DNA of 39,992 nt from Ruminococcus sp. GTDB lineage: Bacteria; Bacillota; Clostridia; Oscillospirales; Ruminococcaceae. The translations under genes were made by a program, and so were the position numbers. Below are positions 1,457-38,388 of this stretch, one piece after another (the stretch's first letter is position 1; each line of letters begins with the position of its first letter). The notes beneath the pieces were generated by a model. That model saw only the letters and a list, made by a program, of their open reading frames with translations. It did no database searches and was not told the origin of the DNA. Location: assembly GCA_017543595.1 (NCBI GenBank), contig JAFYFU010000002.1, positions 1 through 39,992 of the forward strand. The letters are read 5' to 3'.

Positions 1457-4400
1457 TTACTTAAAGTAAGCAACTCCGCTTTCAAAGATTTTCTGGTCTT
1501 TTTCTCCGGGAACGTTCTTGCAGATATAAGTTCCCTTACGTTCCGAGTGACCCATTTTTCCGAGTACCCTGCCATCGGGAGAAGTTATTCCCTCGACAGC
1601 TTCCATTGAAGTATTGGGATTGTAGTGTATATCCATTGTCGGGTGACCCTTTAAGTCAACATACTGTGTGGCAATCTGTCCGTTGTTTGCAAGTCTCTGA
1701 ATAAGCGATTCGGGTGCTACAAAACGTCCCTCGCCGTGAGATATTGCAACGCTGTGGATATCTCCCACTTCGCAGCCGTAAAGCCAAGGAGATTTATTTG
1801 AGGCGATTCTTGTATTTACCATCATTGACTGGTGTCTTGCGATTGTGTTAAATGTAAGCGTTGCGGATTCGTCCGTCATATCGGTTATTTCGCCGTAGGG
1901 TACAAGTCCGAGCTTTATCAGTGCCTGAAAACCGTTGCATATTCCGAGCATAAGTCCGTCACGGAATTTAAGCAAATCGTGAACGGCGTCCTTTATTTTG
2001 GGATTCCTGAAAAATGCCGTAATGAATTTACCGCTTCCTTCGGGTTCGTCACCGCCGCTGAATCCGCCGGGAATCATTATAATCTGTGCATCTTTTACAG
2101 CCTTTTCAAAGACATCAACCGAGTCCTCTATATCGCCTGCGGAAATATTTCTGATTACAATGGTCTGAGCCTCTGCGCCTGCTTTTTCAAAAGCACGTGC
2201 GGTATCGTATTCGCAGTTTGTTCCGGGGAATACGGGGATAATTACCTTAGGCTTTGCGGTCTTTATTGCCGCACTTCTGCGTTCCTCGTTCTTGTAGCTG
2301 TAAGTTTCGGGCTTTGCCTCGGTAGTTTTTATTCTGCACGGGAATACGGGTTCAAGCTTGCCCTCCCATACTCTTTGGAGGTTGTCAAGGCTTACGATAT
2401 AGTCAAGACCTCTTATCATGTACTCATCGCTTGTCTTACCGATAAGGTTTTCGCCCTCCTGAACATCTCCGTCAAGTTCGATGATAAATGAACCGTAGCA
2501 GGGCTTAAAGAGTTCATGTGAAGAAAGTCTCTTGCCAAATACAAAGCCGAGTTTGTTTCCGAAACACATTTTTACGATACCTTCGGCATTTCCGCCGTAG
2601 CCTGCCGTCCATACTGCCTTTGCCCTGCCGTCCGATATAATCTTTTCAACCTGTTCAAAGCAAGCCTTAATGCTGTCGAATACGGGGAGTCCCTTTTCGT
2701 CATATTCGGGAGTTATAAGTATAACGTTGTCGCCTGCATCTTTAAATTCCGTTGAAACTATCTTATCAGCCTTTGCCGTTGAAACTGCAAAAGAAACAAG
2801 CGTGGGCGGTACGTCTATATCTTCAAAAGTACCTGACATTGAATCTTTTCCGCCTATTGAACCGCAGCCGAGTTCAAGCTGTGCCTTGAAAGCACCGAGG
2901 AGTGCTGCCATAGGCTTGCCCCAGCGTTTCGGGTCGTTCTTGGTTCTCTCAAAATATTCCTGGAATGTCAGCCAGCATTTTTTATAAGTTCCGCCTGCCG
3001 CAACGACTTTTGCTATTGATTCAACAACGGCAAGCATTGCACCGTGATAAGGGCTGTTTGACGATATATCGGGATTGTAACCCCAGCCCATAAGCGAACA
3101 GGTATTTGTTTCGCCGTCAAGTACGGGGATTTTCGCAGCCATAGCCTGTGAGGGTGTCATCTGATATGCTCCGCCGAAAGGCATGAGGACTGTTCCTGCT
3201 CCGATAGTTGAATCGAATTTCTCGATAAGACCTTTCTGCGAACATACGTTGAGATTTCCCATAAGTTCCGTCCATGAATCGGCTGTATTGCTCAGACAGC
3301 TCATTTTGAGCTTTTCGGGTGCTTCAACGGTTATATCGGTAAACTTGGGCGCACCGTTTGAATTTAAAAATTCTCTTGAAAGGTCAACGATTGTATTTCC
3401 GTTCCAAATCATTTTAAGTCTTGGTTCGTCAACAACATCTGCGACAACAGTGGCTTCAAGGTTTTCTTTCTTTGCTTCTGCGAGGAATTTGTCCAAATCT
3501 TCGGGAGCAATAACGACAGCCATTCTCTCCTGTGATTCGGAAATAGCTATTTCAGTACCGTCAAGACCTTCATATTTCTTGGGAACGGCATTGAGGTTTA
3601 TTATGAGTCCGTCCGTAAGTTCTCCGATTGCAACGGAAACACCGCCCGCACCGAAATCGTTGCAGCGTTTTATCATTGAAGTAACTTCGGGATTTCTGAA
3701 AAGTCTCTGGAGTTTTCTTTCTTCGGGGGGATTGCCTTTCTGGACTTCCGCACCGCAGCTTTCAAGGGATTCAAGAGTATGAGACTTTGAAGAACCTGTT
3801 GCACCGCCGCAGCCGTCACGACCTGTCTTTCCTCCGAGAAGTATTACAATATCGCCTGCAACGGGTCTTTCACGCCTGATATTTTCAGCGGGGGCAGCAC
3901 CGAGAACCGCACCTATTTCCATTCTCTTTGCGATATAGCCCGGGTGATATACTTCTGCAACGTGACCTGTTGCAAGACCTATCTGGTTGCCGTATGAACT
4001 GTAACCGTTAGCTGCACCGACTGTTATTTTTCTCTGGGGGAGTTTTCCCTTTATGGTATCCTCAACGGGAACAAGAGGATTTGCCGCACCTGTCACACGC
4101 ATAGCCTGATATACATAGGAACGTCCCGAAAGCGGGTCACGGATTGCTCCGCCGAGACAGGTAGCCGCACCGCCGAAAGGTTCGATTTCCGTGGGGTGGT
4201 TATGGGTTTCATTTTTGAACATGAGAATCCAGTCCTGTTCCTCGCCGTCAATGTCAGCCTTTATCTTTACGGAGCAGGCATTTATTTCTTCGCTTTCGTC
4301 AAGGTCGGGAAGAAGTCCGTCAGCTTTGAGTTTCTTTGCGGCAATAGTACCCAAATCCATAAGAGTTATGGGCTTGTCGGTTCTGCCGAGTTCCTTACGG

Positions 4401-5161
4401 ACATTTATATACATATCATAGGTATCTTTTACATACTGTTCATTGATATCGACTTTGTTTATGTTTGTGAGGAAAGTCGTATGACGGCAATGGTCAGACC
4501 AGTATGTATCAATCATTCTTATTTCTGTTATAGTGGGGTCACGCTTTTCCGTATTGCGGAAATAATCCTGACAGAATTTTATATCGTCATAGTCCATCGC
4601 AAGACCGAACTTGTCAATAAATGCACGGAGACCCTTTTCATTGAGATTGATGAAATTTTCAAGAGTCTCAACAGTTGTCGGAATATCATAATTTGATTCA
4701 AGAGTCGTGAATCTGTCAAGAGTAGCCTCACGACTTTCAACAGGGTTGATTATATAAGCCTTTATGCGGTCAAATTCCTCATCTGTTATATTGCCCTCTA
4801 TGAGATATATCCTTGCATTTCTGACACGGCATCTTTCGCCCTGTCTGAGAATCTGAATACACTGCTGACAACTGTCGGCTCTCTGGTCGAACTGTCCGGG
4901 GAGATATTCAACTGCGAATACTCTTTCGCCGTAAGAAGGTTCGGGCATTTCCCTGTAAACCAAATCAACGGCAGGCTCTGAAAATACGGTGCTTATGGCA
5001 GCCTCGAAATCTTCTTCCGAAAGCTTGTCTGCATCATAGCGGTTGAATATCCTTACATTTGTGACATTCAGTCTCAAAGCCGTTTTGATGTCATTGAGGA
5101 CGGATTGTGCCTCAACGGCAAATTCCTTTTTCTTTTCTACATAAATTCTGAATACGGACAT
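1457..5161 (-). CDS. purL: Phosphoribosylformylglycinamidine synthase, single-chain type
   Basis: Catalyses the ATP- and glutamine-dependent conversion of FGAR to FGAM in purine synthesis. At 1234 residues it is the long single-chain form, with synthase halves followed by a C-terminal class I glutamine amidotransferase domain (about residues 985-1230) that shows the start strand IPVFPGTNCEYDTARA, the nucleophile motif GICNGFQ and a late HSERKG segment. The synthase part shows DTYWSDHCRHTTF and KNETHNHPTEIEPFGGA typical of the family. The start is placed at MSVFRIYVE because GGAGG lies 5 bases before it; an ATG 12 bases further up overlaps that ribosome site and is unlikely. It lies downstream of mtaB on the same strand, separated by two tandem hairpin elements and a fragment. 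Confidence 0.96.
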   Translation of the reverse strand: MSVFRIYVEKKKEFAVEAQSVLNDIKTALRLNVTNVRIFNRYDADKLSEEDFEAAISTVFSEPAVDLVYREMPEPSYGERVFAVEYLPGQFDQRADSCQQCIQILRQGERCRVRNARIYLIEGNITDEEFDRIKAYIINPVESREATLDRFTTLESNYDIPTTVETLENFINLNEKGLRAFIDKFGLAMDYDDIKFCQDYFRNTEKRDPTITEIRMIDTYWSDHCRHTTFLTNINKVDINEQYVKDTYDMYINVRKELGRTDKPITLMDLGTIAAKKLKADGLLPDLDESEEINACSVKIKADIDGEEQDWILMFKNETHNHPTEIEPFGGAATCLGGAIRDPLSGRSYVYQAMRVTGAANPLVPVEDTIKGKLPQRKITVGAANGYSSYGNQIGLATGHVAEVYHPGYIAKRMEIGAVLGAAPAENIRRERPVAGDIVILLGGKTGRDGCGGATGSSKSHTLESLESCGAEVQKGNPPEERKLQRLFRNPEVTSMIKRCNDFGAGGVSVAIGELTDGLIINLNAVPKKYEGLDGTEIAISESQERMAVVIAPEDLDKFLAEAKKENLEATVVADVVDEPRLKMIWNGNTIVDLSREFLNSNGAPKFTDITVEAPEKLKMSCLSNTADSWTELMGNLNVCSQKGLIEKFDSTIGAGTVLMPFGGAYQMTPSQAMAAKIPVLDGETNTCSLMGWGYNPDISSNSPYHGAMLAVVESIAKVVAAGGTYKKCWLTFQEYFERTKNDPKRWGKPMAALLGAFKAQLELGCGSIGGKDSMSGTFEDIDVPPTLVSFAVSTAKADKIVSTEFKDAGDNVILITPEYDEKGLPVFDSIKACFEQVEKIISDGRAKAVWTAGYGGNAEGIVKMCFGNKLGFVFGKRLSSHELFKPCYGSFIIELDGDVQEGENLIGKTSDEYMIRGLDYIVSLDNLQRVWEGKLEPVFPCRIKTTEAKPETYSYKNEERRSAAIKTAKPKVIIPVFPGTNCEYDTARAFEKAGAEAQTIVIRNISAGDIEDSVDVFEKAVKDAQIIMIPGGFSGGDEPEGSGKFITAFFRNPKIKDAVHDLLKFRDGLMLGICNGFQALIKLGLVPYGEITDMTDESATLTFNTIARHQSMMVNTRIASNKSPWLYGCEVGDIHSVAISHGEGRFVAPESLIQRLANNGQIATQYVDLKGHPTMDIHYNPNTSMEAVEGITSPDGRVLGKMGHSERKGTYICKNVPGEKDQKIFESGVAYFK

Positions 5162-5171
5162 AATTACCTCC

Positions 5172-5266
5172 ATTTAAAATCGTCGATTTTCGCCTTTTGT
5201 GGCTTGCCATTTCATTCACTTCGCTGACGCTCCGTTCATTCTCATGGCAAGGGCGAAAATCTCCTC
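5172..5266 (-). repeat. Type A hairpin element, copy 1 upstream of purL
   Basis: A 95-bp unit joined directly to the purL ribosome site. In purL sense it starts GAGGAGATTTTCGCC, has an outer stem (GATTTTCGCC with GGCGAAAATC) and an inner stem (CTTGCCAT with ATGGCAAG), a purine-rich loop with GAATGAACGGAGCG, and ends GACGATTTTAAAT next to GGAGG. Nearly identical to the next unit. Confidence 0.9.
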
Positions 5267-5362
5267 AAATTAAAATCGTCGATTTTCGCCTTTTGTGGCT
5301 TGCCATTTCATTCACTTCGCTGACGCTCCGTTCATTCTCATGGCAAGAGCGAAAATCTCCTC
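5267..5362 (-). repeat. Type A hairpin element, tandem copy 2 upstream of purL
   Basis: Second tandem unit, about 96 bp, differing from copy 1 by a single base in the stem (AAGGGCG versus AAGAGCG) and small changes at the junction. The GAGGAG motif at its distal end and at the junction between units is shared, so the array reads SD-like motif, element, SD-like motif, element, SD. Confidence 0.9.
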
Positions 5363-5390
5363 AAAATAAAATCATTGATTTTCGCCTTTT
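5363..5390 (-). repeat. Truncated third copy of the type A element, containing the mtaB stop codon
   Basis: Only the gene-proximal end of a unit remains: AAAAGGCGAAAATC followed by a variant of GACGATTTTAATTT (here AATGATTTTATTTT). The mtaB reading frame runs into it, so the last residues (KGENQ) and the TGA stop of mtaB come from this fragment. Confidence 0.7.
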
Positions 5391-7053: not shown

Positions 7054-7242
7054 AGGAGGAAATTTTTGCCCTTGCCGTATGAACGAACGGAGCAAAGGGG
7101 GGTTGGGGGGAATAAGCCGCCCCTTGAATCGGGAATGAACGGAGCGCAGCGGAGTGAATGAAGATTCAAGCACCAAAGGGCGGCTCCCCCCATTCAAAAT
7201 AAAAAAGCAAGCCCCAAAAGGCAAAAATTGACGACTTTATTT
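7054..7242 (+). repeat. Composite element: type B G/C hairpin nested in a type A element
   Basis: Starts at AGGAGGAAATTTTTGCCCTTG and ends with AAGCCCCAAAAGGCAAAAATTGACG-type sequence joined to AGGAGG at 7243, the outer type A arms. The loop region holds a different hairpin (about 7096-7200): GGGGGG 7105-7110 pairs with CCCCCC 7186-7191, GCCGCCC 7116-7122 with GGGCGGC 7178-7184, and CTTGAATC 7123-7130 with GATTCAAG 7163-7170. Its loop carries the GAATGAACGGAGCG and GGAGTGAATGAA motifs also found in type A loops. Confidence 0.8.
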
Positions 7243-7256
7243 AGGAGGTAACAATT

Positions 7257-7487
7257 ATGACAAAGGCAACAATCATGCTCACAGCCATTAACGATGTAAA
7301 GGATTTCGTAGGCATCGTCATGAAGTACGATTACGACATTGACCTCATTTCGGGAAGATACGCAGTTGATGCAAAATCTATCATGGGTATTTTCAGCCTT
7401 GACCTCACAAAGCCTATCGAACTCAATGCTCACACAGATGACGCTGACAAGTTCCTCAAAGAAATTGAAAAGTACATCGTAAAGTAA
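7257..7487 (+). CDS. HPr-like protein without the active-site histidine
   Basis: A 76-residue protein with the size and pattern of the PTS phosphocarrier HPr. The regulatory serine region is well kept (KSIMGIFSLDL, Ser41 at the place of HPr Ser46), and the ends fit the open-faced beta sandwich. The usual GxHARPA motif that holds the phosphorylated His15 is absent: the equivalent stretch reads INDVKDFVGIVMKYD. It therefore cannot accept phosphate from enzyme I at that site. By analogy with Crh of Bacillus (which lacks His15 but keeps Ser46) it might serve as a regulator through a serine kinase; this is inference. The start has AGGAGG 8 bases upstream. It stands alone, with its own promoter, a long structured leader and a strong terminator. 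Confidence 0.8.
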   Translation: MTKATIMLTAINDVKDFVGIVMKYDYDIDLISGRYAVDAKSIMGIFSLDLTKPIELNAHTDDADKFLKEIEKYIVK

Positions 7488-7539: not shown

Positions 7540-8619
7540 TCAAATCAGTTTTCTTTCGTCACAGTATTCACATTCAAGGAGCGTTTCATCTCCGCAGGTT
7601 ATAAAGCTTTTCGGGAGGTGCGCCTCATGATTTGTTATGCATTTCGGGTTGTCGCATTTAACTTTTCCGTATACTTTTCCTTTGAGAGTAACAGATGATT
7701 TCTTTTCTTTGAGCATGGTCATTATCAGAGCCATACGCACAAAAACTCCGTACTTAGCCTGAGTGAAGTACATAGCCCTGCTGTCGTCATCAACGTCAAC
7801 TGCTATTTCGTCAACTCTTGGAAGCGGGTGCATGACTATCATATCTTTTTTTGCGAGTTTCATTTTCTTTCTGTCGAGGACATAAGTATTCTTCTGGGCG
7901 AGATATTCTTCCTCACTTGCGAATCTTTCCTGCTGGATTCTTGTCATATAGAGAACGTCAAGTCTGCCCATAGCTTCTTCAAGGGTATTTACCTCTTCAA
8001 ACCTGCTGCCGTTAGCCTTGATGATATCCTTTATATATGCAGGCATACCGAGTTCCTTTGTCGATATGAATATGAAATTATTGTCAAACATACTCAAAGC
8101 TTTGCAGAGAGAATGGACTGTTCTGCCGTTGAGCAAGTCTCCGCACATACCGATAGTCAGACCGCTTAACGTTTTCTTTTCTATTTTGAGGGTGAGCAGG
8201 TCTGTAAGGGTCTGAGTCGGGTGAAGATGACCGCCGTCACCTGCATTTATTACCGAGCAGTCAGCCGTAAGGGAAGCAGCTTTTGCCGCACCTGCAATAG
8301 GGTGTCTTATTACGAGAATATCCGCATAACTGCTTACTATTTTTGTAGTATCCTTGATAGTTTCGCCCTTTGCGACAGAAGAATTTGCAGGGTTGTCAAA
8401 GCCGATTATCTGACCGCCGAGACGAATCATAGCGGTCTGAAATGACATCTGCGTACGGGTTGACGGCTCATAGAAAAGAGTTGCCATAATTTTCCCGTCA
8501 CATTCATGAGCAAATTTTTCGGGATTATTTTTGATTTCCTCTCCGAGTTCAACGACATTCTGCCACCATGAAACGGGGTAGTCGCTCAAATCAATAAGGT
8601 GCTGAAATTCTGATTTCAT
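7540..8619 (-). CDS. pyrB: Aspartate carbamoyltransferase with fused PyrI-like zinc tail
   Basis: Makes carbamoyl-aspartate from carbamoyl phosphate and aspartate in pyrimidine synthesis. The catalytic chain shows FYEPSTRTQMSF (carbamoyl phosphate loop) and MHPLPRVDEI. At 359 residues it is about 50 longer than a normal PyrB; the extra tail reads KCDNPKCITNHEAH and then LECEYCDE, a CxxxxC plus CxxC arrangement that matches the zinc domain at the end of the regulatory chain PyrI. No nucleotide-binding (ATP/CTP) half of PyrI is present. Start chosen at MKSEFQHL: AGGAGG lies 6 bases upstream, while the 20 extra residues before it are translated repeat. It is downstream of asnB with two tandem type A elements between. 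Confidence 0.93.
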   Translation of the reverse strand: MKSEFQHLIDLSDYPVSWWQNVVELGEEIKNNPEKFAHECDGKIMATLFYEPSTRTQMSFQTAMIRLGGQIIGFDNPANSSVAKGETIKDTTKIVSSYADILVIRHPIAGAAKAASLTADCSVINAGDGGHLHPTQTLTDLLTLKIEKKTLSGLTIGMCGDLLNGRTVHSLCKALSMFDNNFIFISTKELGMPAYIKDIIKANGSRFEEVNTLEEAMGRLDVLYMTRIQQERFASEEEYLAQKNTYVLDRKKMKLAKKDMIVMHPLPRVDEIAVDVDDDSRAMYFTQAKYGVFVRMALIMTMLKEKKSSVTLKGKVYGKVKCDNPKCITNHEAHLPKSFITCGDETLLECEYCDERKLI

Positions 8620-8631
8620 AAAAATCCTCCT

Positions 8632-8724
8632 ATTTAAAATCGTCAGATTTTGCCTTTTAAGGCTTGACATTTCGTTCACTGCACTGCGTTTCGTTCACTC
8701 TCATGTCAAGGGCAAAATCCTCCT
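8632..8724 (-). repeat. Type A hairpin element, copy 1 upstream of pyrB
   Basis: Adjoins the pyrB AGGAGG (8626-8631). Outer stem GATTTTGCC with GGCAAAATC; inner stem CTTGACAT with ATGTCAAG; loop with GTGAACGAAACGCAGTGCAG. It ends at a second AGGAGG (8719-8724), which is also the end of the next copy. Confidence 0.9.
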
Positions 8725-8819
8725 CTTATTTAAAATCGTCAGATTTTGCCTTTTAAGGCTTGCCTGTTCACTCGCTCCGTAAACTGCGCTCGCTCATACG
8801 GCAAGGGCAAAATCCTCCT
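8725..8819 (-). repeat. Type A hairpin element, copy 2 upstream of pyrB
   Basis: Same outer stem as the neighbouring copy but with a different inner stem (CTTGCC with GGCAAG) and loop (GAGCGAGCGCAG), bounded by AGGAGG at 8814-8819. The paired changes in the inner stem keep it complementary. Confidence 0.9.
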
Positions 8820-8848
8820 CTTGTCTAAGTTCACACTTTGTTACGCAT

Positions 8849-10705
8849 TTAGTTAAAATATACTTTGTACCAGACAAGGAAAGTGAACACCGTCCAGATT
8901 TTTCTGCTGTTGTCGGCTTTTCCGTCCCTATGGTCGTCAAGAAGTTTCACTATTGAATCAGTATTGAAGAATTTCCTTGAATTTTCGCTTTCAAAGGCTT
9001 CTCTCACTATCTGATAATATTTATCCTCTTTGAGCCATACTCTTATCGGTACGGGGAAACCGAGTTTTTTCTTTGAAGCGGTTTTCGCAGTCTGTTCGGG
9101 AGTATCTTTCTTTGCGGCAAGGCGCATGGCATATTTTGTTATATATTTTGTCTCATCGGTTTTCTTTGAACGTGTTACCCTGCACTCTGTCGGGATTTTC
9201 TCTGCAAGGGACATAATTTCCCTGTCGAGGAAAGGAACTCTGAGTTCAAGGGAATTTGCCATACTCATCTTGTCGGCTTTGAGAAGAATATCCCCTGCGA
9301 GCCACATATGCAAGTCAAGGTACTGCATTTTTGTTACATCGTCCTTATTGAAAACCCTGTTGAAATAAGGCTTGGTAATAATCTGCGGATTGGGCGCACT
9401 TGTCTTTATTTTCAATATTTCCTTTCGTTTTTCGGGGCTGAAAATATATGCATTTCCGACAAATCTTTCCTCAACGCTTTTACCCTTGCGGACAAAGAAA
9501 TTAACGCCTCTTTTTTCGGGGAGTTTCTCGGCGATATGACCTATTCCCCTCCTTATGCCTTTCGGCAGTTTGTCATAGAGAGTTCCGTCAGGGTCTGAAT
9601 AGACGTTATATCCGCCGAATATTTCATCTGCGCCCTCTCCCGAAAGAACAACTTTAAGTTTCTTTGAAGCTGTATTGCAGACGAAATAAAGTGCAACCGC
9701 TGACGGGTCTGCAAGGGGTTCGTCCATATGGTACTGAATTTTTTCAAGGATTCCCCAATATTCTTCGGGAGTTATGACCTTGCTGTCGTTGGCTTTTCCT
9801 ATTGCCTCCGAAAATTCTTTTGCAAAGGATATTTCGTTATATTTTTCATCTGTTCCGAAACCTACCGTGAAAGTTTTGTCAACGTCCGCAACTGCCGCAA
9901 CATAGCTTGAATCGACACCGCTCGAAAGAAACGAACCTACTTCAACATCTGCTATTTTATGCGCTCTTACGGAATCATGGAAAGTTTCGGATATTTTCTC
10001 TGCCCATTCCTCAACGGTCAAGCCTTTTTCCTCATTGAAGCAAACGTCCCAGTAAGGCTTTACGGTGAATTTCCTGTCTTTGAGTATGAAATAATGTGCA
10101 GGCAGAAGCTTATAGACATTTTTGAAAAAAGTTTCTTTTGTCGGGGAATACTGGAAAGTCAGGTAATTTTCAAGGGCGGAAGTATTCAGTTCCTTTTTGA
10201 AATCGGGGTGGTCAAGGAAAGATTTTATCTCCGAACCGAACATGAACGATTTACCCATGAAAGCGTAATACATGGGCTTTATTCCGAAGAAATCCCTTGC
10301 ACCGAAAAGCTGTTTTTCATTTTTGTCCCAGATGACAAAAGAGAACATTCCCCTTAATTTTCCGAGGAGTTCCGTACCGTATTCCTCATAGCCGTGAACA
10401 AGTACCTCCGTATCGGTATTTGTCTTGAAAACGTGACCTTTTTCCCTGAGAGATTCCCTGAGTTCACGGTAATTGTAAATCTCTCCGTTGAAAACTATGA
10501 CAATATTTCCGTCCTCATTGAATATGGGCTGATTTCCGCTTTCGCCCGTGTCAATAATACTCAGCCTGCGGTGACCGAGGGCAATATCGCTGTCGATATA
10601 TTTTCCCTCCGCATCAGGTCCACGGTGCTTGATTCTGTCCATCATATCGCCGAGAGTTTTTTCGGCATTTCCGATACTGTTTGTAAATCCGACAATTCCG
10701 CACAT
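8849..10705 (-). CDS. asnB: Asparagine synthase (glutamine-hydrolysing)
   Basis: Converts aspartate to asparagine with ATP and glutamine. An N-terminal class II glutaminase domain (about residues 1-210) begins MCGIVGFTNS, with Cys2 as the nucleophile after Met removal, and includes HRLSIID and NGEIYNYRELR. The synthetase domain carries the pyrophosphate loop SFLSSGVDSSYVA and later GEGADEIFGGY. Length 618 residues is normal. The start must be at MCG because the catalytic Cys has to follow the initiator Met; AGGAGG lies 7 bases upstream and the 27 upstream in-frame codons are translated repeat. It heads an asnB-pyrB gene pair on the minus strand behind a clear promoter and a nested repeat in the leader. 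Confidence 0.96.
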   Translation of the reverse strand: MCGIVGFTNSIGNAEKTLGDMMDRIKHRGPDAEGKYIDSDIALGHRRLSIIDTGESGNQPIFNEDGNIVIVFNGEIYNYRELRESLREKGHVFKTNTDTEVLVHGYEEYGTELLGKLRGMFSFVIWDKNEKQLFGARDFFGIKPMYYAFMGKSFMFGSEIKSFLDHPDFKKELNTSALENYLTFQYSPTKETFFKNVYKLLPAHYFILKDRKFTVKPYWDVCFNEEKGLTVEEWAEKISETFHDSVRAHKIADVEVGSFLSSGVDSSYVAAVADVDKTFTVGFGTDEKYNEISFAKEFSEAIGKANDSKVITPEEYWGILEKIQYHMDEPLADPSAVALYFVCNTASKKLKVVLSGEGADEIFGGYNVYSDPDGTLYDKLPKGIRRGIGHIAEKLPEKRGVNFFVRKGKSVEERFVGNAYIFSPEKRKEILKIKTSAPNPQIITKPYFNRVFNKDDVTKMQYLDLHMWLAGDILLKADKMSMANSLELRVPFLDREIMSLAEKIPTECRVTRSKKTDETKYITKYAMRLAAKKDTPEQTAKTASKKKLGFPVPIRVWLKEDKYYQIVREAFESENSRKFFNTDSIVKLLDDHRDGKADNSRKIWTVFTFLVWYKVYFN

Positions 10706-10718
10706 AAATTTTCCTCCT

Positions 10719-10905
10719 ATTTTAGAATCGTCAAATTTGCGCTTTCGTGGCTTGTCATTTCGTTCACTTTTATTTAAAATCGTCAAACTGTGTCTTTTGT
10801 GGCTTGCCTATTCACTCACTACGCTGCGCTCCGTTCATTCATACGGCAAGGACACAGTTTTCCTCATATTTCGTTCACTTTCATGACAAGGCGCAAATTT
10901 TCCTT
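10719..10905 (-). repeat. Type A element interrupted by another type A element, upstream of asnB
   Basis: The outer copy has arms AAATTTGCGCCTTGTCATG and the complementary CAAGCCACGAAAGCGCAAATTTG, ending GACGATTCTAAAAT beside the asnB AGGAGG (10713-10718). Its loop is split by a complete second element at 10771-10865; the loop motif AAAGTGAACGAAAT lies on both sides of the insert. Confidence 0.85.
10771..10865 (-). repeat. Nested inner type A element in the asnB leader
   Basis: A complete 95-bp unit: begins GAGGAAAACTGTGTCCTTG, has outer stem AACTGTGTC with GACACAGTT, inner stem CTTGCC with GGCAAG, loop GAATGAACGGAGCGCAGCG, and ends GACGATTTTAAAT. Its stem sequence differs from that of the outer copy while the two ends are conserved. 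Confidence 0.85.
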
Positions 10906-17494: not shown

Positions 17495-17591
17495 AGGAGG
17501 AAAATTTGTGCCTTGCACTGAGAGTGAACGAAGCGTCCGCGCAGTGAACGAAAGTGCAAGCCTTAAAAGCACAAATTTGACGACTTTAAAT
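17495..17591 (+). repeat. Type A hairpin element upstream of the glycyl-radical gene
   Basis: The cleanest single copy: AGGAGG (17495-17500), AAAATTTGTGCCTTGCACT, loop with GTGAACGAAGCG and GTGAACGAA, then AGTGCAAG and GCACAAATTTGACGACTTTAAAT, then AGGAGG (17592-17597) of the next gene. Outer stem AAATTTGTGC with GCACAAATTT, inner stem CTTGCACT with AGTGCAAG. Period from AGGAGG to AGGAGG is 97 bases. Confidence 0.92.
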
Positions 17592-17602
17592 AGGAGGTTA
17601 CT

Positions 17603-17842
17603 ATGGCAAACGATAAACAGATTGATAATTTGATTGAACTTATTGACGGCTATGTTGAAAAAGGCGGTCATCACCTCAATGTGAATGTATTCACAAGAGA
17701 AACTCTCCTTGACGCTCAGGCTCACCCCGAAAAATATCCTCAGCTTACCGTAAGGGTTTCGGGCTATGCCGTAAACTTTGTAAAGCTTACAAAAGAACAG
17801 CAGGACGATGTTATTTCAAGAACTTTCCACTCATCTCTCTAA
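17603..17842 (+). CDS. grcA: Stand-alone glycyl-radical domain, GrcA-like, completing the split PFL
   Basis: A 79-residue protein equal to the C-terminal domain of pyruvate formate-lyase: [28 protein letters not shown], the radical loop RVSGYAVNF (glycine at about residue 55) and the end [13 protein letters not shown]. In Escherichia coli the homologue GrcA (YfiD) repairs PFL cut by oxygen, but there PFL also has its own domain. Here the large protein of the same operon lacks it, so this protein should be an obligatory subunit rather than a spare part. Read from AGGAGG 5 bases upstream, which is joined to a type A element. A strong terminator follows. The symbol reflects homology; the role proposed here is different. 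Confidence 0.9.
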
Positions 17843-18865: not shown

Positions 18866-21796
18866 ATGAAAGAAAACTTTATCAAAAAGGCGGCTGCACT
18901 TATTCTGTCGGGGGCTGTGCTTTTTAATGTTTCGGATATTTCCTCTCCCTCTATGATATCCGATGCCGCAGTAAATGCCTCCCGTGTGTCGGTGCATGAC
19001 CCGTCAATCATCAAAGACCCGAAAACAGGGCAGTATTACGTTTTCGGCTCTCATGTCGAGGCGGCAAAGTCAAAAGATTTGCTCAACTGGAACAGGTTTA
19101 CAAACGGCTACACAACTCCCAGAAATGTCGAATTTGGCGATATGTCCGCAAACCTCAAAAAAGCTTTCGATTGGAGCGGTGAGGATATGGAGGACTGCAA
19201 AGGCGGTTTCGCAGTATGGGCTCCCGATGTTATATGGAATCCCGACTATGTGAACACTGACGGCTCAAAAGGTGCGTATGTGATGTACTTCTGTACTTCA
19301 TCAACCTATATACGTTCCGTTATATGCTACGCAGTTTCGCAGAATATCGAAGGTCCGTATACTTTTGTCGATACTTTGATATATACGGGCTTTACGGGAA
19401 ATGACCAGTATGTTCAGGGCGGTTCAAGAACTGTCAACAAAAAATATACCTCCACAAATATTGATGAGCTTATCGCAAGCGGAGAAGTTCAGTACAATGA
19501 CAAATGGTTCAGCAACAACAATTACAACAACAACCTTTTCCCCAATGCAATCGACCCGACTATATACTACGGCACTGACGGAAAAATGTACATGGTCTAC
19601 GGTTCATGGTCAGGCGGTATATTCACCCTTGAAATAGACAAAACTACGGGAAAATGCATACACCCGAAATCAGGCACTACCTCTGACGGAAGAATGATTG
19701 ACAGCTATTTCGGAACAAAACTCATAGGCGGTTATCACAAATCAGGCGAAGCCCCGTTTATTGAGTACAACGAAGAAACAGGCTATTATTATCTCTGGGT
19801 TACATTCGGCGGACTTCTCTCAAACGGCGGTTACAATATGCGTGTCTACCGTTCAAAGAATCCGACAGGTCCTTTTGTTGACCCGTCAGGAAAGACAAGC
19901 ATTATGAGCGCAAATTCAAATCTTGACGAACACGGACTTAAAGTAATGGGCAACTATAAGTTCAGTACGCAGAATACGGCTTATATGGCTTGCGGTCACA
20001 ACTCTGTACTCAGAGATGATGACGGAAACTGGTATCTTTTCTATCATGCTAGATTTGATGACGGCACGGAATACCATGAAGTAAGAGTTCATTCCATTCA
20101 GTTCAATTCCGAGGGCTGGCCCGTTGTTGCTCCCAATGAGTATCAGAGTGACCCCATAGATACAGGCGGTTACAATGAACAGGATATAGCCGGCACTTAT
20201 GAATACATAAACCACGGCAACGACACAGGAAGTAAAATTTATAACTATTCGACAATAAATCTCTCTGCGGACGGAAAAATTTCCGGTGCGGTTTCGGGTA
20301 CATGGTCACAGGATTCAGGTTCGGCAGATGCAGTCATAACTATCGGAAATCAGAAGTATTACGGCAAATTCCTCGCTGCAAAAGACGAAAACGGCAGAAA
20401 AGTTATGTCATTTACCGCTGTCGGAAACAACAATCAGACAATCTGGGGAAATAAAACCACCGAATTTACGGGTACTCCGAGAAGCGGAGGATATACCGCA
20501 GAAAAATTCACAGACGGTTCTGCCTTTACAATTAAGAATGTAAACAGCGGTCTTTTCATGGAAGTTGAAGGCAATAAAGCCGAAAACGGTACAAATGTTC
20601 AGCAGTGGGACTTGAACGGCGGTGACGAAAATGCCGAAAATATCCCCGATACCTGGAACACATGGAGATTGTTTGACGCTGAGGACGGTTATTACTACAT
20701 CATTTCGGAAGTCGGTGACGGTGCAACCTATGCCCTTGACGTTTCAGGCAAAAAAGCCGATAACGGCACTAATATAGGCATTTATCAGTTCAACGGCGGG
20801 GACAATCAGAAATTTAAATTAACTAAAAATGATGACGGTTCTTATAAAATCCGCACAAAGGTCTCAAAAGACAAGTCAGGCGTTGAAATCGAAAGCGGAA
20901 GCCTTGAATACGGTGCAAATGTTCAGGAATGGGAAATAAACGGCGCAAACTGTCAGGACTGGATTTTAACTTCCTCCGAAAACCACGGAATCGAAATGAA
21001 TACAAATCAGCTCTATACTTTCAAAAATGTAAACAGCGGTTTCGTTATGGATATAATCAACGGTCAGATGAAAGACAATTCCAACGTTCAGCAGTGGGAA
21101 TCAAACAATGAAAACTGCCAGAAATGGAAAATTGTTCCCTACGAAAACGGCGGAAATTATTACTATCTGCGTTCGCTTATGGACGAAAATTATGCACTCC
21201 GCTGTGACGGTTCGGAAAACGGCGGAAATCTCAGCATACAGACTTATTCCGCAGGTGACAGCTCAATGCTTTTCAAGTTCGCTAAAAACCTTGACGGCTC
21301 TTACAGAATCATGACGGGTTCATCAAAGGATTCAAAAATTCTTGAAGTCGCAAATGCAAGCAGTGAATACGGCGCAAATGTTCAGCAGTGGGAAGCAAAC
21401 GGAAATGACTGCCAGAAATGGACTGCCATTACGGAAGACTTGCCGTTTACGGAAACTACCACCACAACCGAAACAACAACTACTACCACAACGACTACTG
21501 TAACCACAACAGAGGAAACAACTGCGGATTCTACCGAAACAGTCACAACGGAAGAAACAAAAATTGTCCTCGGTGACGCAAATGAGGACGGAAATGTAAC
21601 TGTTTCCGATGCTGTCGCAATTCTCCAACACCTTGCAAATTCCGACAAATACGGTCTTACACCGCAGGGAAAACTCAATGGTGATGTCGTTGACAACGGA
21701 AACGGAATAACAGGTCAGGACGCTGCCGCAATTCAACTTATTGATTCGGGTATTCTTGATATATCCAAACTCCCCATAAAAAGCACTGACCTTTAA
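18866..21796 (+). CDS. Secreted GH43 endo-arabinanase with two ricin-type CBMs and dockerin
   Basis: 976 residues. Signal peptide about 1-38 (KK then a hydrophobic stretch). GH43 catalytic domain about 41-430 closely resembles Bacillus subtilis Abn2: VSVHDPSIIKDP (base Asp), AIDPTIYYG, GEAPFIEYNEETGYYYLWVTFGG (acid Glu), CGHNSVLRDD. A small beta-barrel domain starting DIAGTYEYINHG follows, also as in Abn2. Two ricin-type beta-trefoil (CBM13-like) domains about 547-690 and 711-855 have repeated VQQWE type QxW motifs. A Thr-rich linker about 863-900 leads to a type I dockerin (LGDANEDGNVTVSDAVAIL, second half GITGQDAAAIQ). It should cut the alpha-1,5-arabinan of pectin while docked to a cell-surface scaffold. 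Reached from GGAG 8 bases upstream. Exact substrate preference is inferred. Confidence 0.93.
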   Translation: MKENFIKKAAALILSGAVLFNVSDISSPSMISDAAVNASRVSVHDPSIIKDPKTGQYYVFGSHVEAAKSKDLLNWNRFTNGYTTPRNVEFGDMSANLKKAFDWSGEDMEDCKGGFAVWAPDVIWNPDYVNTDGSKGAYVMYFCTSSTYIRSVICYAVSQNIEGPYTFVDTLIYTGFTGNDQYVQGGSRTVNKKYTSTNIDELIASGEVQYNDKWFSNNNYNNNLFPNAIDPTIYYGTDGKMYMVYGSWSGGIFTLEIDKTTGKCIHPKSGTTSDGRMIDSYFGTKLIGGYHKSGEAPFIEYNEETGYYYLWVTFGGLLSNGGYNMRVYRSKNPTGPFVDPSGKTSIMSANSNLDEHGLKVMGNYKFSTQNTAYMACGHNSVLRDDDGNWYLFYHARFDDGTEYHEVRVHSIQFNSEGWPVVAPNEYQSDPIDTGGYNEQDIAGTYEYINHGNDTGSKIYNYSTINLSADGKISGAVSGTWSQDSGSADAVITIGNQKYYGKFLAAKDENGRKVMSFTAVGNNNQTIWGNKTTEFTGTPRSGGYTAEKFTDGSAFTIKNVNSGLFMEVEGNKAENGTNVQQWDLNGGDENAENIPDTWNTWRLFDAEDGYYYIISEVGDGATYALDVSGKKADNGTNIGIYQFNGGDNQKFKLTKNDDGSYKIRTKVSKDKSGVEIESGSLEYGANVQEWEINGANCQDWILTSSENHGIEMNTNQLYTFKNVNSGFVMDIINGQMKDNSNVQQWESNNENCQKWKIVPYENGGNYYYLRSLMDENYALRCDGSENGGNLSIQTYSAGDSSMLFKFAKNLDGSYRIMTGSSKDSKILEVANASSEYGANVQQWEANGNDCQKWTAITEDLPFTETTTTTETTTTTTTTTVTTTEETTADSTETVTTEETKIVLGDANEDGNVTVSDAVAILQHLANSDKYGLTPQGKLNGDVVDNGNGITGQDAAAIQLIDSGILDISKLPIKSTDL

Positions 21797-26102: not shown

Positions 26103-27197
26103 TTATTTTTTATATTCGCTGTACTGTACAGCTATTCTGTTTTCGGGCTGTTTATCGAACAAATAAAGCACAAACACAAAAAGCCATTCAAGGGGTTTCA
26201 TTAAAATATATACTATATCAGCCCTTAAAGGCGTTGTGATATGCTTTGAAATCGGATAGCCGTATTTGTTATAAAAATTTCTTATTTTCCTGTGAATTTT
26301 CGGAACTCTCTCCGCAATTAAATCCTCAAAGGCATTTGCTGCGGCAAGCTGACGGTTCACAAGAATAATATTTTTTCCTCTTTTGCCGTAGCGTAAGGGC
26401 TTTACCAGTTTTTTATGACCTCCTGCGGCAACGGTGCATAAATAATGCCCGTCATGTTCAAGGGGCGGAGGCGGCTGCTGCATTGAAAAAGTCCAGTCCG
26501 CAGTATCTGTAAATACCTTTATAAAGCCGTCCGCACCCTGTCCGAAAAGTATATAAAGAACCTCAATTATAACCGCTATGGGCAGTATCATCATAAAGCA
26601 GAAAGATGTCATTTTTGAGATATCCCTGCATTTTTCGGCGAGTTTTTCGGCGAATTTATTTCTGTAAACTCTTTCGGTATCGTTTGCGATTCTGACATTT
26701 TCGGTTATATGAACTCTTGTCCGCCTTGCGAATATAAGTAAAAGATTTGCATAATATACCCATGCCATAAGGTCAATAAAACTGTAATCCGCCATAAGCT
26801 GAATATTTATCAGCAGGAATATTATAAGCCCGACCGCTGACATGGATATTGCAAATGCCGAAAGTATCGGAGTGAAATTTTTCGGATTCACAAATATAAG
26901 TATCAGAAATGCAATAATCGTAAAAAACGCTGCTATCCATATAACATCGGTATATTTTGAGCTTAAAAGCTCATGCTTGCTTCCGACATATACAGGTTCA
27001 GACCAGTATTTTTCGGATATTTCGTGTGCTGCAACCAGCAAACTCCAACAGAATCCGCCAAAGGCACAGGTCACAAAGTCGGAAATACTCTTTTCTTCGT
27101 CAGCTTTAAGAAATAGTTTTACATTTACATAAGTCAGATAAAAAGGATATATCAGAAAAAGCAGGATAAAAATAAAACCGCCAATTCCTGAAACCAT
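26103..27197 (-). CDS. Multi-pass membrane protein between topoisomerase subunits (DUF6688-like)
   Basis: 364 residues, with hydrophobic segments near 3-24, 40-58, 84-105, 110-132 and 205-226. The C-terminal third is soluble and shows conserved-looking motifs: QQPPPPLEHDGHYLCTVAA, GHKKLVKPLRYGKRG, NKYGYPISKHI and PLEWLFVFVLYLFDKQPENR. It looks like the uncharacterised DUF6688 group; that name is from memory and should be checked. Start at MVSGIGG is set by AGGAGG 7 bases upstream; the 33 in-frame residues before it are translated repeat. Its place between the two subunits, 19 bases before subunit A, suggests co-expression with them. No function can be given. Confidence 0.7.
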   Translation of the reverse strand: MVSGIGGFIFILLFLIYPFYLTYVNVKLFLKADEEKSISDFVTCAFGGFCWSLLVAAHEISEKYWSEPVYVGSKHELLSSKYTDVIWIAAFFTIIAFLILIFVNPKNFTPILSAFAISMSAVGLIIFLLINIQLMADYSFIDLMAWVYYANLLLIFARRTRVHITENVRIANDTERVYRNKFAEKLAEKCRDISKMTSFCFMMILPIAVIIEVLYILFGQGADGFIKVFTDTADWTFSMQQPPPPLEHDGHYLCTVAAGGHKKLVKPLRYGKRGKNIILVNRQLAAANAFEDLIAERVPKIHRKIRNFYNKYGYPISKHITTPLRADIVYILMKPLEWLFVFVLYLFDKQPENRIAVQYSEYKK

Positions 27198-27209
27198 AGC
27201 CAACCTCCT

Positions 27210-27360
27210 ATTCAAAATCGTCAGATTTGCACTTTGGGCTTGCTTATATTTAAAATGGGGGGAAGCCGCCCTTTGTAATCTTGTGCTTTCGTTCACTGCA
27301 CTGCGTTCCGTTCACTTTCAGCACAAGGGGCGGCTTTTATCCCCCCAAGCCCCCCTTATT
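27210..27360 (-). repeat. Composite type A/type B element upstream of the membrane protein gene
   Basis: Beside the AGGAGG (27204-27209) is one type A arm (in gene sense GTGCAAATCTGACGATTTTGAAT). Next to it is a type B hairpin: GGGGGG 27257-27262 with CCCCCC 27341-27346, GCCGCCC 27265-27271 with GGGCGGC 27328-27334, TTGTGCT 27281-27287 with AGCACAA 27320-27326. The far type A arm and its AGGAGG are missing. It fills the whole gap between the topoisomerase subunit B gene and the membrane protein gene. Confidence 0.8.
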
Positions 27361-27372
27361 ATAATTCCGAAT

Positions 27373-29352
27373 TTATGAAATATCCGCAAGTTCGAGGTAA
27401 TCCGCACCGTATTCGGATATATAGTCTTTTCTGCCCTGCAAATCATCTCCGAGGAGCATTTCAAAAACTTCCGCAGATTCGGTTATATCATCGGCAGTAA
27501 CCTTGATAAGTCTGCGTGTTTCGGGGTTCATGGTAGTTAAACTCATCATGTCGGGTTCATTTTCGCCGAGACCTTTTGAACGCTGAATAGTATATTTTTT
27601 ATTTTTGAGTTCATTGAGTATGCGCTGTTTTTCATGCTCGGTATAGGCAAAATAAGTTTTTTCCTTAGTATTTATCTCAAAGAGAGGAGATTCCGCAATA
27701 TAAACATATCCCTGCTCTATAAGCGTAGGTGTCAGGCGGTAGAGCATTGTAAGAATCAGGGTTCTTATCTGAAAGCCGTCAACGTCTGCATCAGTGCATA
27801 TTACTATCTTATTCCAGCGGAAATTTTCTATGTTGAAAGTTGAAAGTTCCTTATTTGCCTTTGAAGTGACTTCAACTCCGCAGCCGAGAACTTTTATCAA
27901 ATCGGTTATTATTTCGCTCTTGAAAATTTTGGCATAGTCTGCTTTAAGGCAGTTGAGAATTTTTCCTCTTACGGGGATTACAGCCTGAAATTCCGCATCA
28001 CGGGCGAGTTTTACCGAGCCGAGGGCTGAATCTCCCTCAACGATATATATTTCACGCCTTGAAACGTCCTTTGTACGGCAGTCCACGAATTTTTCAACCA
28101 TATTCGAGAGGTCAATAGTTCCCGTAAGTTTTTTTCTTACGTTAAGCCTTACTCTTTCGGCATTTTCACGGCTTCTCTTGTTTATAAGTACCTGTTCGGC
28201 TATTTTTCGGGCTTCATCGGGATTCTCTATGAAATACACTTCAAGATTGTGCCTTAGAAATTCCGTCATAGCCTCACGGATAAATTTATTTGTTATAGCT
28301 TTTTTAGTCTGGTTTTCGTAGGAAGTCTGCGTTGAAAATGATGACGACACAAGCACAAGACATTCCTCAACATCATTGTAATTTATTTTTCCCTCATTCT
28401 TCTGATAGGCGTTGTTCTGCTTCAAATAAGCGTCTATCTGTGCGACAAAGGCACGTTTCACGGCATCTTCGGGAGAACCGCCGTGTTCGAGAAAGCTTGA
28501 ATTGTGATAGTATTCGGTAAGCTTTATTTTATTTGAAAAAGTAAGTGCAACATCAAGCTTTACTTTATATTCGGGCTTGTCCTCACGGTCTTTTCCGATT
28601 TTTTCGGCAGTCCAGTGCTGAATTGAAGTCAGTGAAATTTCTCCTGCCATTTCCTTTACATAGTCTGTTATGCCGTTTTCGTAGATAAATTCTTTTTCTT
28701 CAAATTCTCCGTTTTCGTTTTCAGACCTGAACACAAATAATATATTCGGGTTTACGACTGCCTGTCTTTTGAGAATATCAAAGAAATACTCATCTGACAC
28801 GGCTATATCTGTAAATACTTCCAAATCGGGCTTCCAGCGAGTTTTAGTACCCGTCTGTTTTTTTCTGCACGGAGATTTTTCAAGACCGCCGATATTTTCG
28901 CCCTTTTCAAAATGCAGATTATATTTGAATCCGTCACGGATAACCTCAACGTCCATAAATTCAGAGGCAAACTGAGTTGCACAAAGTCCCAGTCCGTTAA
29001 GACCGAGCGAAAACTCATAGGATTCCGCATTGTTGTCATACTTACCGCCTGCATAGAGTTCGCAGTAGACAAGTTCCCAGTTGTAACGCTGTTCGTTGTT
29101 GTTGAAATCAACGGGACAGCCTCTGCCGAAATCCTCAACTTCTATTTCATGATTCCTGTAATGAGTGATTATTATTTTATTTCCGTAACCTGCACGGGCT
29201 TCATCAATTGAGTTTGAAATAACTTCAAATACAGAGTGTTCACAGCCGTCAAGACCGTCCGAACCGAAAATGACCGCAGGACGTTTTCTTACCTTGTCAG
29301 CACCTTTAAGCATTGTAATGCTGTCGTTGCCGTAATCTGTTTTCTTAGCCAT
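27373..29352 (-). CDS. Type IIA topoisomerase subunit B, topoisomerase IV-like (ParE-like)
   Basis: 659 residues; ATPase subunit that partners the A subunit encoded 1.3 kb downstream. GHKL ATPase motifs are SVFEVISNSIDEARAG, VEDFGRGCPVD and SLGLNGLGLC; the TOPRIM domain shows YIVEGDSALGSVKLARD and the metal motif CTDADVDGFQIRT; the end has RSKGLGENEPDMM. The length fits ParE or short GyrB. The N-terminal start MAKKTDYGNDSI has AGGAGAT 6 bases upstream. The type (gyrase or topoisomerase IV) is set mainly by the partner, which lacks the gyrase box. First gene of the operon. Confidence 0.9.
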   Translation of the reverse strand: MAKKTDYGNDSITMLKGADKVRKRPAVIFGSDGLDGCEHSVFEVISNSIDEARAGYGNKIIITHYRNHEIEVEDFGRGCPVDFNNNEQRYNWELVYCELYAGGKYDNNAESYEFSLGLNGLGLCATQFASEFMDVEVIRDGFKYNLHFEKGENIGGLEKSPCRKKQTGTKTRWKPDLEVFTDIAVSDEYFFDILKRQAVVNPNILFVFRSENENGEFEEKEFIYENGITDYVKEMAGEISLTSIQHWTAEKIGKDREDKPEYKVKLDVALTFSNKIKLTEYYHNSSFLEHGGSPEDAVKRAFVAQIDAYLKQNNAYQKNEGKINYNDVEECLVLVSSSFSTQTSYENQTKKAITNKFIREAMTEFLRHNLEVYFIENPDEARKIAEQVLINKRSRENAERVRLNVRKKLTGTIDLSNMVEKFVDCRTKDVSRREIYIVEGDSALGSVKLARDAEFQAVIPVRGKILNCLKADYAKIFKSEIITDLIKVLGCGVEVTSKANKELSTFNIENFRWNKIVICTDADVDGFQIRTLILTMLYRLTPTLIEQGYVYIAESPLFEINTKEKTYFAYTEHEKQRILNELKNKKYTIQRSKGLGENEPDMMSLTTMNPETRRLIKVTADDITESAEVFEMLLGDDLQGRKDYISEYGADYLELADIS

Positions 29353-29524: not shown

Positions 29525-29540
29525 TTTTTCAGATTTATTT

Positions 29541-29600
29541 AATATCATCAAATTTGCGCTTTTGTGGCTTGACTTTTATTTTGAATGGGAAAAGTCCCCC
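29541..29600 (-). repeat. Degraded type A/type B element fragment
   Basis: In minus sense it ends GCGCAAATTTGATGATATTAAAT, matching a type A right end, preceded by CAAGCCACAAAA and by CCCATTCAAAATAAAAG, as at a type B/type A junction. No AGGAGG follows, and it lies about 190 bases upstream of the topoisomerase subunit B start. Confidence 0.6.
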
Positions 29601-38111: not shown

Positions 38112-38149
38112 AAAAAAGTCCCTGACAGAAAATAAATTCTGTCAAGGAC
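38112..38149 (-). terminator. Regulated terminator of the trp T-box
   Basis: Stem GTCCTTGACAGAA with TTCTGTCAGGGAC (one bulge/mismatch), short loop, then T6. It is the off-state of the T-box and competes with the antiterminator that includes the T-box core. Confidence 0.85.
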
Positions 38150-38388
38150 GAATAAACTTATCCGTGGTGCCACCTTGATTCATGGAAAATCCATGCACTT
38201 TTACAGGATACTGTCATATCCCTGATGATTAACGCACATCATAACGTCACGGAATACTCAGGATACAAAATCCCTTTGACCATGCCCTCAGCGGTCCATT
38301 TACCGACTTGTTTTTCACCCAATTCTCAGCAGCGTGGGTTCTCTGTGGAAGCATCATCGGCTTTATCTCCGCCTCAACGGTTTCATTG
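38112..38388 (-). ncRNA. T-box riboswitch leader of the trp operon (tRNA-Trp)
   Basis: In trpE sense the leader shows a stem I with the conserved AGAGAACCC and GCTGCTGAGAA segments, a specifier on its 3' side, GGTAAATGGACC, with TGG (Trp) at 38298-38296, the T-box core AAGGTGGCACCACGG (about 38177-38162), and a terminator, GTCC and TGACAGAA paired with TTCTGTCA and GGAC, followed by six Ts (38149-38111). The TGGC of the core would pair with a GCCA tRNA end, as expected if tRNA-Trp has discriminator G. Uncharged tRNA-Trp should bind and allow trpEGDCFBA to be read. Confidence 0.93.

Follow-up and report, generated by a model that had tools for sequence, protein, structure and literature searches.

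Several known families of small repeats share features with the element that we describe here. REP and REPIN sequences with TnpA_REP (RAYT) are short, imperfectly palindromic repeats that lie outside genes in many copies and have a conserved short sequence at the 5′ foot of the hairpin. Our element is similar in these respects. However, its foot reads GAGGA (alignment A1; 67 of 75 array ends), whereas PMC6006769 gives GT[AG]G for REPs. REPINs, as presented in PMC3116915, are RAYT-linked inverted doublets, and the present element looks different: its arrays appear to be direct and not inverted pairs, and it adjoins a Shine-Dalgarno sequence (SD) in one orientation to genes. IS200/IS605 elements and their non-autonomous derivatives have a strand-specific hairpin, insert 3′ of a short target and leave no general target duplication. 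Our element is like them in this, and also in that its 3′ end (AAATA) resembles its 5′ flank (AAAYA), but a single hairpin spans it and an SD lies on its 3′ side. MITEs are likewise small, non-coding and present in many copies, with empty sites in relatives. Unlike them, our arrays show no sign of target-site duplication, and the conserved feature is a fold, not the terminal inverted repeats of DDE transposons. Integron attC sites act as a folded single strand whose structure is better conserved than its sequence, and their cassettes form head-to-tail arrays. Our element shares the folded strand, this pattern of conservation and the head-to-tail arrays, but has no cassette gene. The nearest start-codon repeats that we met in the literature are the TAACTGA repeats of Beggiatoaceae, which are 7-nt direct repeats, mostly forward, just upstream of many start codons (PMC4679880). 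They mostly lack an SD, and the accessible part of that paper describes neither a hairpin nor an insertion event. In the open-licence PMC literature we found no description of a Ruminococcus hairpin element next to an SD.

The DNA analysed here (the window, 39,992 nt) is contig C101 of a Ruminococcus sp. genome (G000; 2.41 Mb in 127 contigs, 93% complete). A preliminary description of the window had listed units of about 95 bp at six places, the full copies always in the same orientation to the downstream gene. The sequence, repeat families and covariance matches (R1) bore this out, with units present at all six places and an identical orientation at every one. A further remnant (29536-29575), missing from that list, has no SD adjoining it. 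The copies are as follows.

5163..5267, minus strand: full element (R1 E 2.7e-26), the one nearest to the gene 1457-5161, minus strand; tail adjoins the SD TGGAGG, ATG at 5161 (from the sequence; ATG checked)
5259..5363, minus strand: second full element of this tandem array (R1 E 1.6e-24)
5354..5390, minus strand: hairpin-less 3′ remnant (from the sequence; repeat family D5)
7054..7093, plus strand: 5′ half of a split element, starting AGGAGGAAATTTTTGCCC; 3′ border approximate
7094..7206, plus strand: type-2 (G-run ... C-run) hairpin within the split element; borders approximate, HMM positions 14-73 only
7204..7249, plus strand: 3′ half of the split element; tail adjoins the SD AGGAGGT, ATG at 7257 (checked)
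8623..8726, minus strand: full element before a gene with its ATG at 8619 (checked); R1 E 1.2e-27
8719..8821, minus strand: second full element of this array (R1 E 6.3e-24)
10713..10768, minus strand: 3′ half of an outer copy; tail adjoins the SD AGGAGGA, ATG at 10705 (checked)
10763..10866, minus strand: full element nested in the tip of the outer copy (R1 E 2.4e-25; sequence)
10869..10904, minus strand: 5′ half of the outer copy (sequence and HMM)
17496..17600, plus strand: single full element (R1 E 5.8e-26); tail adjoins the SD AGGAGGT, ATG at 17603 (checked)
27203..27244, minus strand: 3′ half of an element; tail adjoins the SD AGGAGGT, ATG at 27197 (checked)
27246..27353, minus strand: type-2 (G-run ... 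C-run) hairpin upstream of the half at 27203..27244; borders approximate
29536..29575, minus strand: 3′ remnant (HMM positions 57-96, E 9.3e-5), about 180 nt upstream of the ATG at 29352 (checked)

The segment 5163-5390 holds two full copies and a hairpin-less remnant. At 7054-7249, a single copy is interrupted by a second, G-run/C-run hairpin, and at 10713-10904 one copy carries another inside its tip. In a related genome (G028), the orthologous site of the copy at 17496..17600 (locus 78) holds two different copies. Elsewhere in the window, four 81-nt repeats at 20559-21422 lie in the open frame 18866-21796 and form a repeated protein module, and a T-box leader is found at 38141-38386 on the minus strand (93.2 bits against a gathering score of 93).

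In gene direction, a full unit of about 95 nt begins with RGAGGA(A/G), followed by the first strand of an outer stem (about 10 bp) and the inner hairpin CTTGnnnn...nnnnCAAG, which has a purine-rich tip. A linker of the CCnnAAAA type then leads into the other strand of the outer stem, and GACGATTTTAAATA forms the tail. The SD and the start codon of the gene come next. The element's own 3′ end is TTTTAAATA. The second hairpin type, AGGGGGGCTTGGGGGG...CCCCCCATTTTAAATA, has a CTTG/CAAG core and a purine-rich tip in common with the first and also occurs before start codons. It is several times fused to the 3′ half of the first type (window 7094-7206 and 27246-27353; C37:23841, C91:63164; L312, L306), and a regular expression for it matched 18 times in the examined G000 sequence and 10 times in that of G028.

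The preliminary description had proposed a genome-wide count with the orientation and position of the copies, and its picture of units beside ribosome sites held up on this scale. In G000, blastn found 46 places. A covariance model built from 53 copies gave at least 148 matches, a lower bound because 150 candidates were scored, and one that includes some type-2 hairpins. They were grouped as 104 arrays (71 single, 24 double, 7 triple and 2 quadruple). By script, 80 of the 104 ran in sense from the tail through an SD-like sequence to an open frame whose start codon lay no more than 36 nt away. Applied to random positions in these stretches, the test succeeded in 1817 of 31321 cases (5.8%). In five further arrays an SD was visible by eye, although one of them (C68:29078) had no clear start codon. 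These five comprise three of the five tails that the script could not parse and two rows that it scored as 'no SD'. Of the remaining arrays, five sit within the tip of a further copy, to which inspection by eye adds two, and in three a second-type hairpin comes next. Contig ends account for five of the 104, four of them scored by script and one by eye. This leaves four, namely C66:21276, C80:1125, C91:2513 and C123:37980, the last being a second-type hairpin. C91:2513 and C80:1125 adjoin the start codon itself, and C66:21276 adjoins a parS-like palindrome. The latter is a three-copy array (C66:21276-21568, L021) that ends at TGTTCCACGTGGAACA instead of an SD, a motif that looks like a parS site.

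A search for the tail followed by an SD gave 59 matches in G000, 31 in G028 and none in eight other genomes of the genus, and the same pattern read backwards gave none in all ten. We inspected 12 stretches around such matches. In six from G000 (L408, L411, L412, L414-L416) the SD was immediately preceded by a tail that lacked a hairpin, three in G000 had the second-type hairpin fused to the 3′ half, and three in G028 had hairpins. Among 54 pairs of copies within arrays, 12 were at least 97% identical and 25 were at most 80% identical. Thus, local duplication and the arrival of different copies both seem to enlarge the arrays. No inverted doublets stood out by eye among the G000 matches, in which multi-copy arrays are same-strand by construction. 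An AT-rich repeat (AATTCGGAATTA-like in G000, AATTCATAATGCATAATTA-like in G028) also lies upstream of several genes beside element sites, e.g. at loci 75, 80 and 81.

The preliminary description had offered, as a simple reading, that the AGGAGG-like motifs at both ends are an insertion target and its duplicate. We compared the two ends of 75 arrays. The left end was near-constant (GAGGA in 67, AAGGA in seven and GGGGA in one), while the right-hand SD varied. The left 5-mer was found again at the right in 12 arrays. At least five bases were shared between the left end and its own right flank in 24 of 75 arrays, compared with about 23 for shuffled partners, and at least seven bases in four, compared with about 1.6. 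The two ends therefore carry little trace of a common origin. The AGGAGGA-like left end is most likely part of the element and not a copy of the target, judging from these sequences. Insertion at ribosome sites, in one orientation and leaving an SD to the gene, stands; duplication of AGGAGG as a general rule was rejected, as the left ends fit their own right flanks no better than shuffled ones.

A short target was seen on the left side. The left flanks of 60 first copies had the motif AA[AT][CT]A, with 0.49-0.83 bits per position, compared with 0.10-0.27 upstream of 328 element-free SDs, a baseline that was aligned on the SD motif rather than on the insertion point. These 60 were kept from 100 flanks after those with tail or type-2 sequence were dropped, and they still include nested copies. 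The motif resembles the element's own 3′ end, TTTTAAATA, and the joint between two elements, AAATA|RGAGGA, resembles the target, AAAYA|RGGAG. Nested copies sit in tips at GGAGCA|TGAGGA, where inner and outer types differ. Insertion thus leaves an SD to the gene and makes a joint that again resembles the target, in keeping with the head-to-tail arrays and the nested copies.

Filled and empty sites could be compared in both phage and bacterial DNA. Two phage genes encode capsid-like proteins that are 96% identical, and their upstream sequences are similar. The empty site (L398) reads ...TTAATTAAACA GGAGGAAATT ATG and the filled one (L397) reads ...TTAATTAAACA [97 nt] GGAGGAAATT ATG. More exactly, L398 has TTATTTTAATTAAACA GGAGGAAATT ATG, and in L397 the 97 nt lie between ...TTAAACA and GGAGGAAATT ATG. 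The insertion is directly 5′ of the SD and is resolved to the base, the only pair for which this is so. Taken alone, its sequence would also fit a 9-nt duplication (AGGAGGAAA on both sides). At a second phage gene, L465 is empty, L464 and L466 have the remnant GAGGAAAATTTGACGATTTCAAATA, and L463 and L467 have the remnant and a full copy. The remnant consists of both element ends, with the hairpin missing between two AAATTT repeats. The site at a third gene is empty in L340, holds the tail only in L319, L324 and L325, and holds the tail and a full copy in L321. We infer that copies later lose the hairpin, leaving short tails.

In the two bacterial genomes, 34 loci had both flanks matched, and the 30 with a gap below 450 nt were compared by eye. 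Of these, 17 were called empty in G028, 10 were occupied in both, one had the second hairpin type in G028 and two had remnants there; the G000 copies at some of the 30 are type-2 or nested. An SD was seen in 16 of the 17 empty sites. Locus 54 had no visible SD, and locus 31, which was called empty, has the tail-like ATTAAATA before its SD. At about 82% identity, these sites are too diverged to fix the junctions. Related sites without the element, which the preliminary description had suggested looking for, therefore exist in G028 and in the phage pair alike. The spread of the element, in both bacteria and phages, has been by insertion immediately 5′ of SDs and in sense with the gene.

The fold of the element is conserved. 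In the model set, double changes were seen in 17 of the 24 pairs. In G028, which was absent from the model set, 97.2% of the cells were paired and 19 of the 24 pairs had double changes, with an alignment fitted to the model's structure, which favours pairing. There, 318 cells were changed on both sides compared with a shuffled mean of 97, and pairing fell to 30-43% when the partners were slid by one to three columns. Most tips follow the pattern RY-GA-RY-GNA-RY-NNN-RY-GNA-RY-GA-RY. All seven pairing and G-A features that we scored were present in 48 of 53 distinct copies in G000 and 61 of 78 in G028, and in none of 6550 shuffled tips. In the copies with all seven, every one of the 654 two-base steps was purine-pyrimidine, which was not itself scored. 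The exceptions were an A/T-rich Watson-Crick tip in four of the 53 G000 copies and the lack of at least one feature in 17 of the 78 G028 copies. G-A pairs with such flanks form sheared pairs in DNA and RNA. The opposite strand has a pyrimidine-rich tip that is unable to form them. As the G-A pairs are possible on the sense strand only, the tip, if functional, would act as a single sense strand.

A folded sense strand, a short 5′ target, a matching 3′ end and no general duplication together correspond to the logic of IS200/IS605 and REP elements as PMC6006769 describes it. The element behaves like a mobile hairpin of this kind, probably one that is processed as a single strand. Our main reading, to which we give a probability of roughly one half, is that its spread by insertion 5′ of SDs depends on an activity that acts in trans and recognises the folded sense strand. 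This strand would more likely be single-stranded DNA than RNA, and the element joint would be exchanged with a matching SD joint, as in IS200/IS605, REP and other folded single-strand recombination sites. Several points speak against it, among them the outcome of the searches for a Y1 transposase or reverse transcriptase described below, the single pair resolved to the base, the tips that depart from the pattern and the copies that do not adjoin an SD. The canonical IS200/IS605 logic would need a 5′ target only and by itself would leave the SD on the 3′ side unexplained. The folded strand could equally be RNA.

The position directly before the SD, the sense orientation, the conserved fold and the AU-rich tail that adjoins the SD in sequence would also suit a cis-regulatory leader RNA, i.e. 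a standby site or protein-binding hairpin that primarily tunes translation and whose mobility is incidental. However, the downstream genes differ and include phage genes, and sister species differ at orthologous sites in the presence, number and type of copies. At the gathering score, Rfam matched nothing over the element in the window, where the T-box was the only match; one weak match over the array at 8600-8840 reached 16.2 bits of the 50 needed (E 0.83). Of the explanations for the element as a biological entity, we consider this the least likely, although a cis-acting RNA, the alternative named in the preliminary description, may be an additional role of the element.

The element occurs in three Ruminococcus genomes (G000, G028 and UBA4383) and in some phage sequences. 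Among 60 relatives, only G000 and G028 matched (0 of 34 other genomes of the same genus, 0 of 24 genomes from other families), and in a scan of 394 genomes from the order, G000 was the only one to match. In both scans the filters were stricter and few candidates were scored for each genome, so that weak copies may have escaped them. Among the matches listed for named species genomes were Ruminococcus sp. UBA4383 (G060), with at least 109 matches, Ruminococcus sp. RGIG4914 from roe deer rumen, which was taken as G028, and Eubacterium sp. RGIG9271, with a single copy near a contig end. G028 had 99 matches in the 0.77 Mb examined. Model matches were found in eight of 23 viral stretches with the tip pattern (10 matches in all, on seven contigs), and the contig of L467 is an eighth viral contig with the element. 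The element sits upstream of phage genes, two of which look like genes for major capsid proteins. The carriers from the named-species scan are metagenome-assembled genomes, five of the 104 arrays are at contig ends and the Eubacterium copy is near one, which might suggest an artefact of assembly or binning, or contamination. Such an origin is highly improbable, given three separate genomes and seven viral contigs with different copies at orthologous positions.

Hairpins with a similar tip were also seen elsewhere. A CCGCC...GGCGG hairpin, mostly with GCAATCTTTGATTGC, in Gastranaerophilales/Melainabacteria has a similar GA/GNA tip by eye (L252, L255, L262, L267, L276-L278, L289 and others), and further hairpins with the tip pattern were found in Bacteroidetes by a scan that had selected for this pattern.

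The viral contigs L296 and L299 have a common upstream sequence, and directly downstream their capsid-like genes differ, with the border of this module exchange at the element. Such a border could arise by template switching during replication or by short-homology strand annealing, with no dedicated enzyme. Both ends of the element are AAAYARGGAGGAAA-like, so that a nascent strand at one SD could move to another SD that bears the element, copy the element and then return. The resemblance between the target and the element joint, the nine identical bases (AGGAGGAAA) that flank the exchange in L398/L397, the local duplication evident from the 12 near-identical pairs within arrays, and the outcome of the profile searches for Y1 and reverse transcriptase, which found no dedicated enzyme, all favour this process. 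It leaves unexplained why two species have kept the hairpin and its G-A tip conserved, with covariation. Moreover, carriers are few (2 of 60 relatives, 1 of 394 genomes in the order), although SDs are everywhere. We therefore regard it as unlikely, while placing it first among the alternatives to processing of the folded strand in trans.

The preliminary description had suggested a search for a Y1/REP-associated transposase. With PF01797 (Y1), there was no match at E≤0.001 in G000, which is 93% complete (best E 0.014), and none at E≤1 in UBA4383. G028, which is 73% complete, had a 77-aa fragment of a Y1 transposase (C28:8723-8881), the only match over the cut-off in the element-rich carriers. 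In this the element is unlike REP/REPIN and IS200/IS605. With PF00078 (RVT_1), no match over the cut-off was found in G000, G028 or UBA4383, which sets it apart from derivatives of retroelements or group II introns. These negative results are limited by the carriers being incomplete metagenome-assembled genomes. Full Y1 and reverse transcriptase genes were present in G061, a genome with a single element copy (one PF00078 match). A Y1 transposase or a reverse transcriptase as the mobiliser in the element-rich carriers was thus not supported, as no full gene passed the cut-off. The enzyme may be missing from the assemblies, borne by a phage, of another family, or absent.

In target-primed reverse transcription, an element RNA with its SD would pair with a nicked CCTCC strand and be copied into DNA. 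The sense orientation and the strand-specific fold agree with this, as do the many copies that keep the 3′ tail without the 5′ part. Hits lacking the 3′ part numbered six in G000, where inspection by eye showed them to be split or nested or to lie at a contig end, and four in G028, covered by the model at full length or at a contig end. Against it stand the RVT_1 searches and the remnants L464 and L466, which keep both ends and have lost the hairpin alone between the AAATTT repeats, as expected for a deletion after insertion. The view of tail-only copies as 5′-truncated retro-copies is weakened by this loss. Furthermore, loss of the 3′ end would remove the SD of the gene, so selection would give the same asymmetry. 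Reverse transcription seems improbable, and we rank it below template switching, which in turn ranks below single-strand processing in trans. A role in translation is compatible with all three.

Processing of the folded single strand could also take a more specific form, which we put forward tentatively and hold to be rather doubtful. The element might belong to a recombination system that uses the ribosome-binding site as its attachment site. Its joint would mimic an extended SD (AAAYA-RGGAGGA), and an enzyme not seen so far would read a single-strand helix that follows the rule RY-GA-RY-GNA-RY-NNN-RY-GNA-RY-GA-RY. If this were true, almost any gene or phage would be a permissive target. The similar tip on unrelated bacterial hairpins, such as those of Gastranaerophilales seen by eye, may mark a wider class of elements.

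Insertions just upstream of genes often disturb expression. The present element appears to avoid this by inserting directly before the SD, so that it can sit before many different genes, including those of phages. It offers a natural library, in which one kind of folded leader stands before about 85 genes of one genome and a sister species is without it at many of the sites. Both the effect of a 5′ hairpin beside the SD and the spread of a small repeat with no visible enzyme are thereby directly testable.
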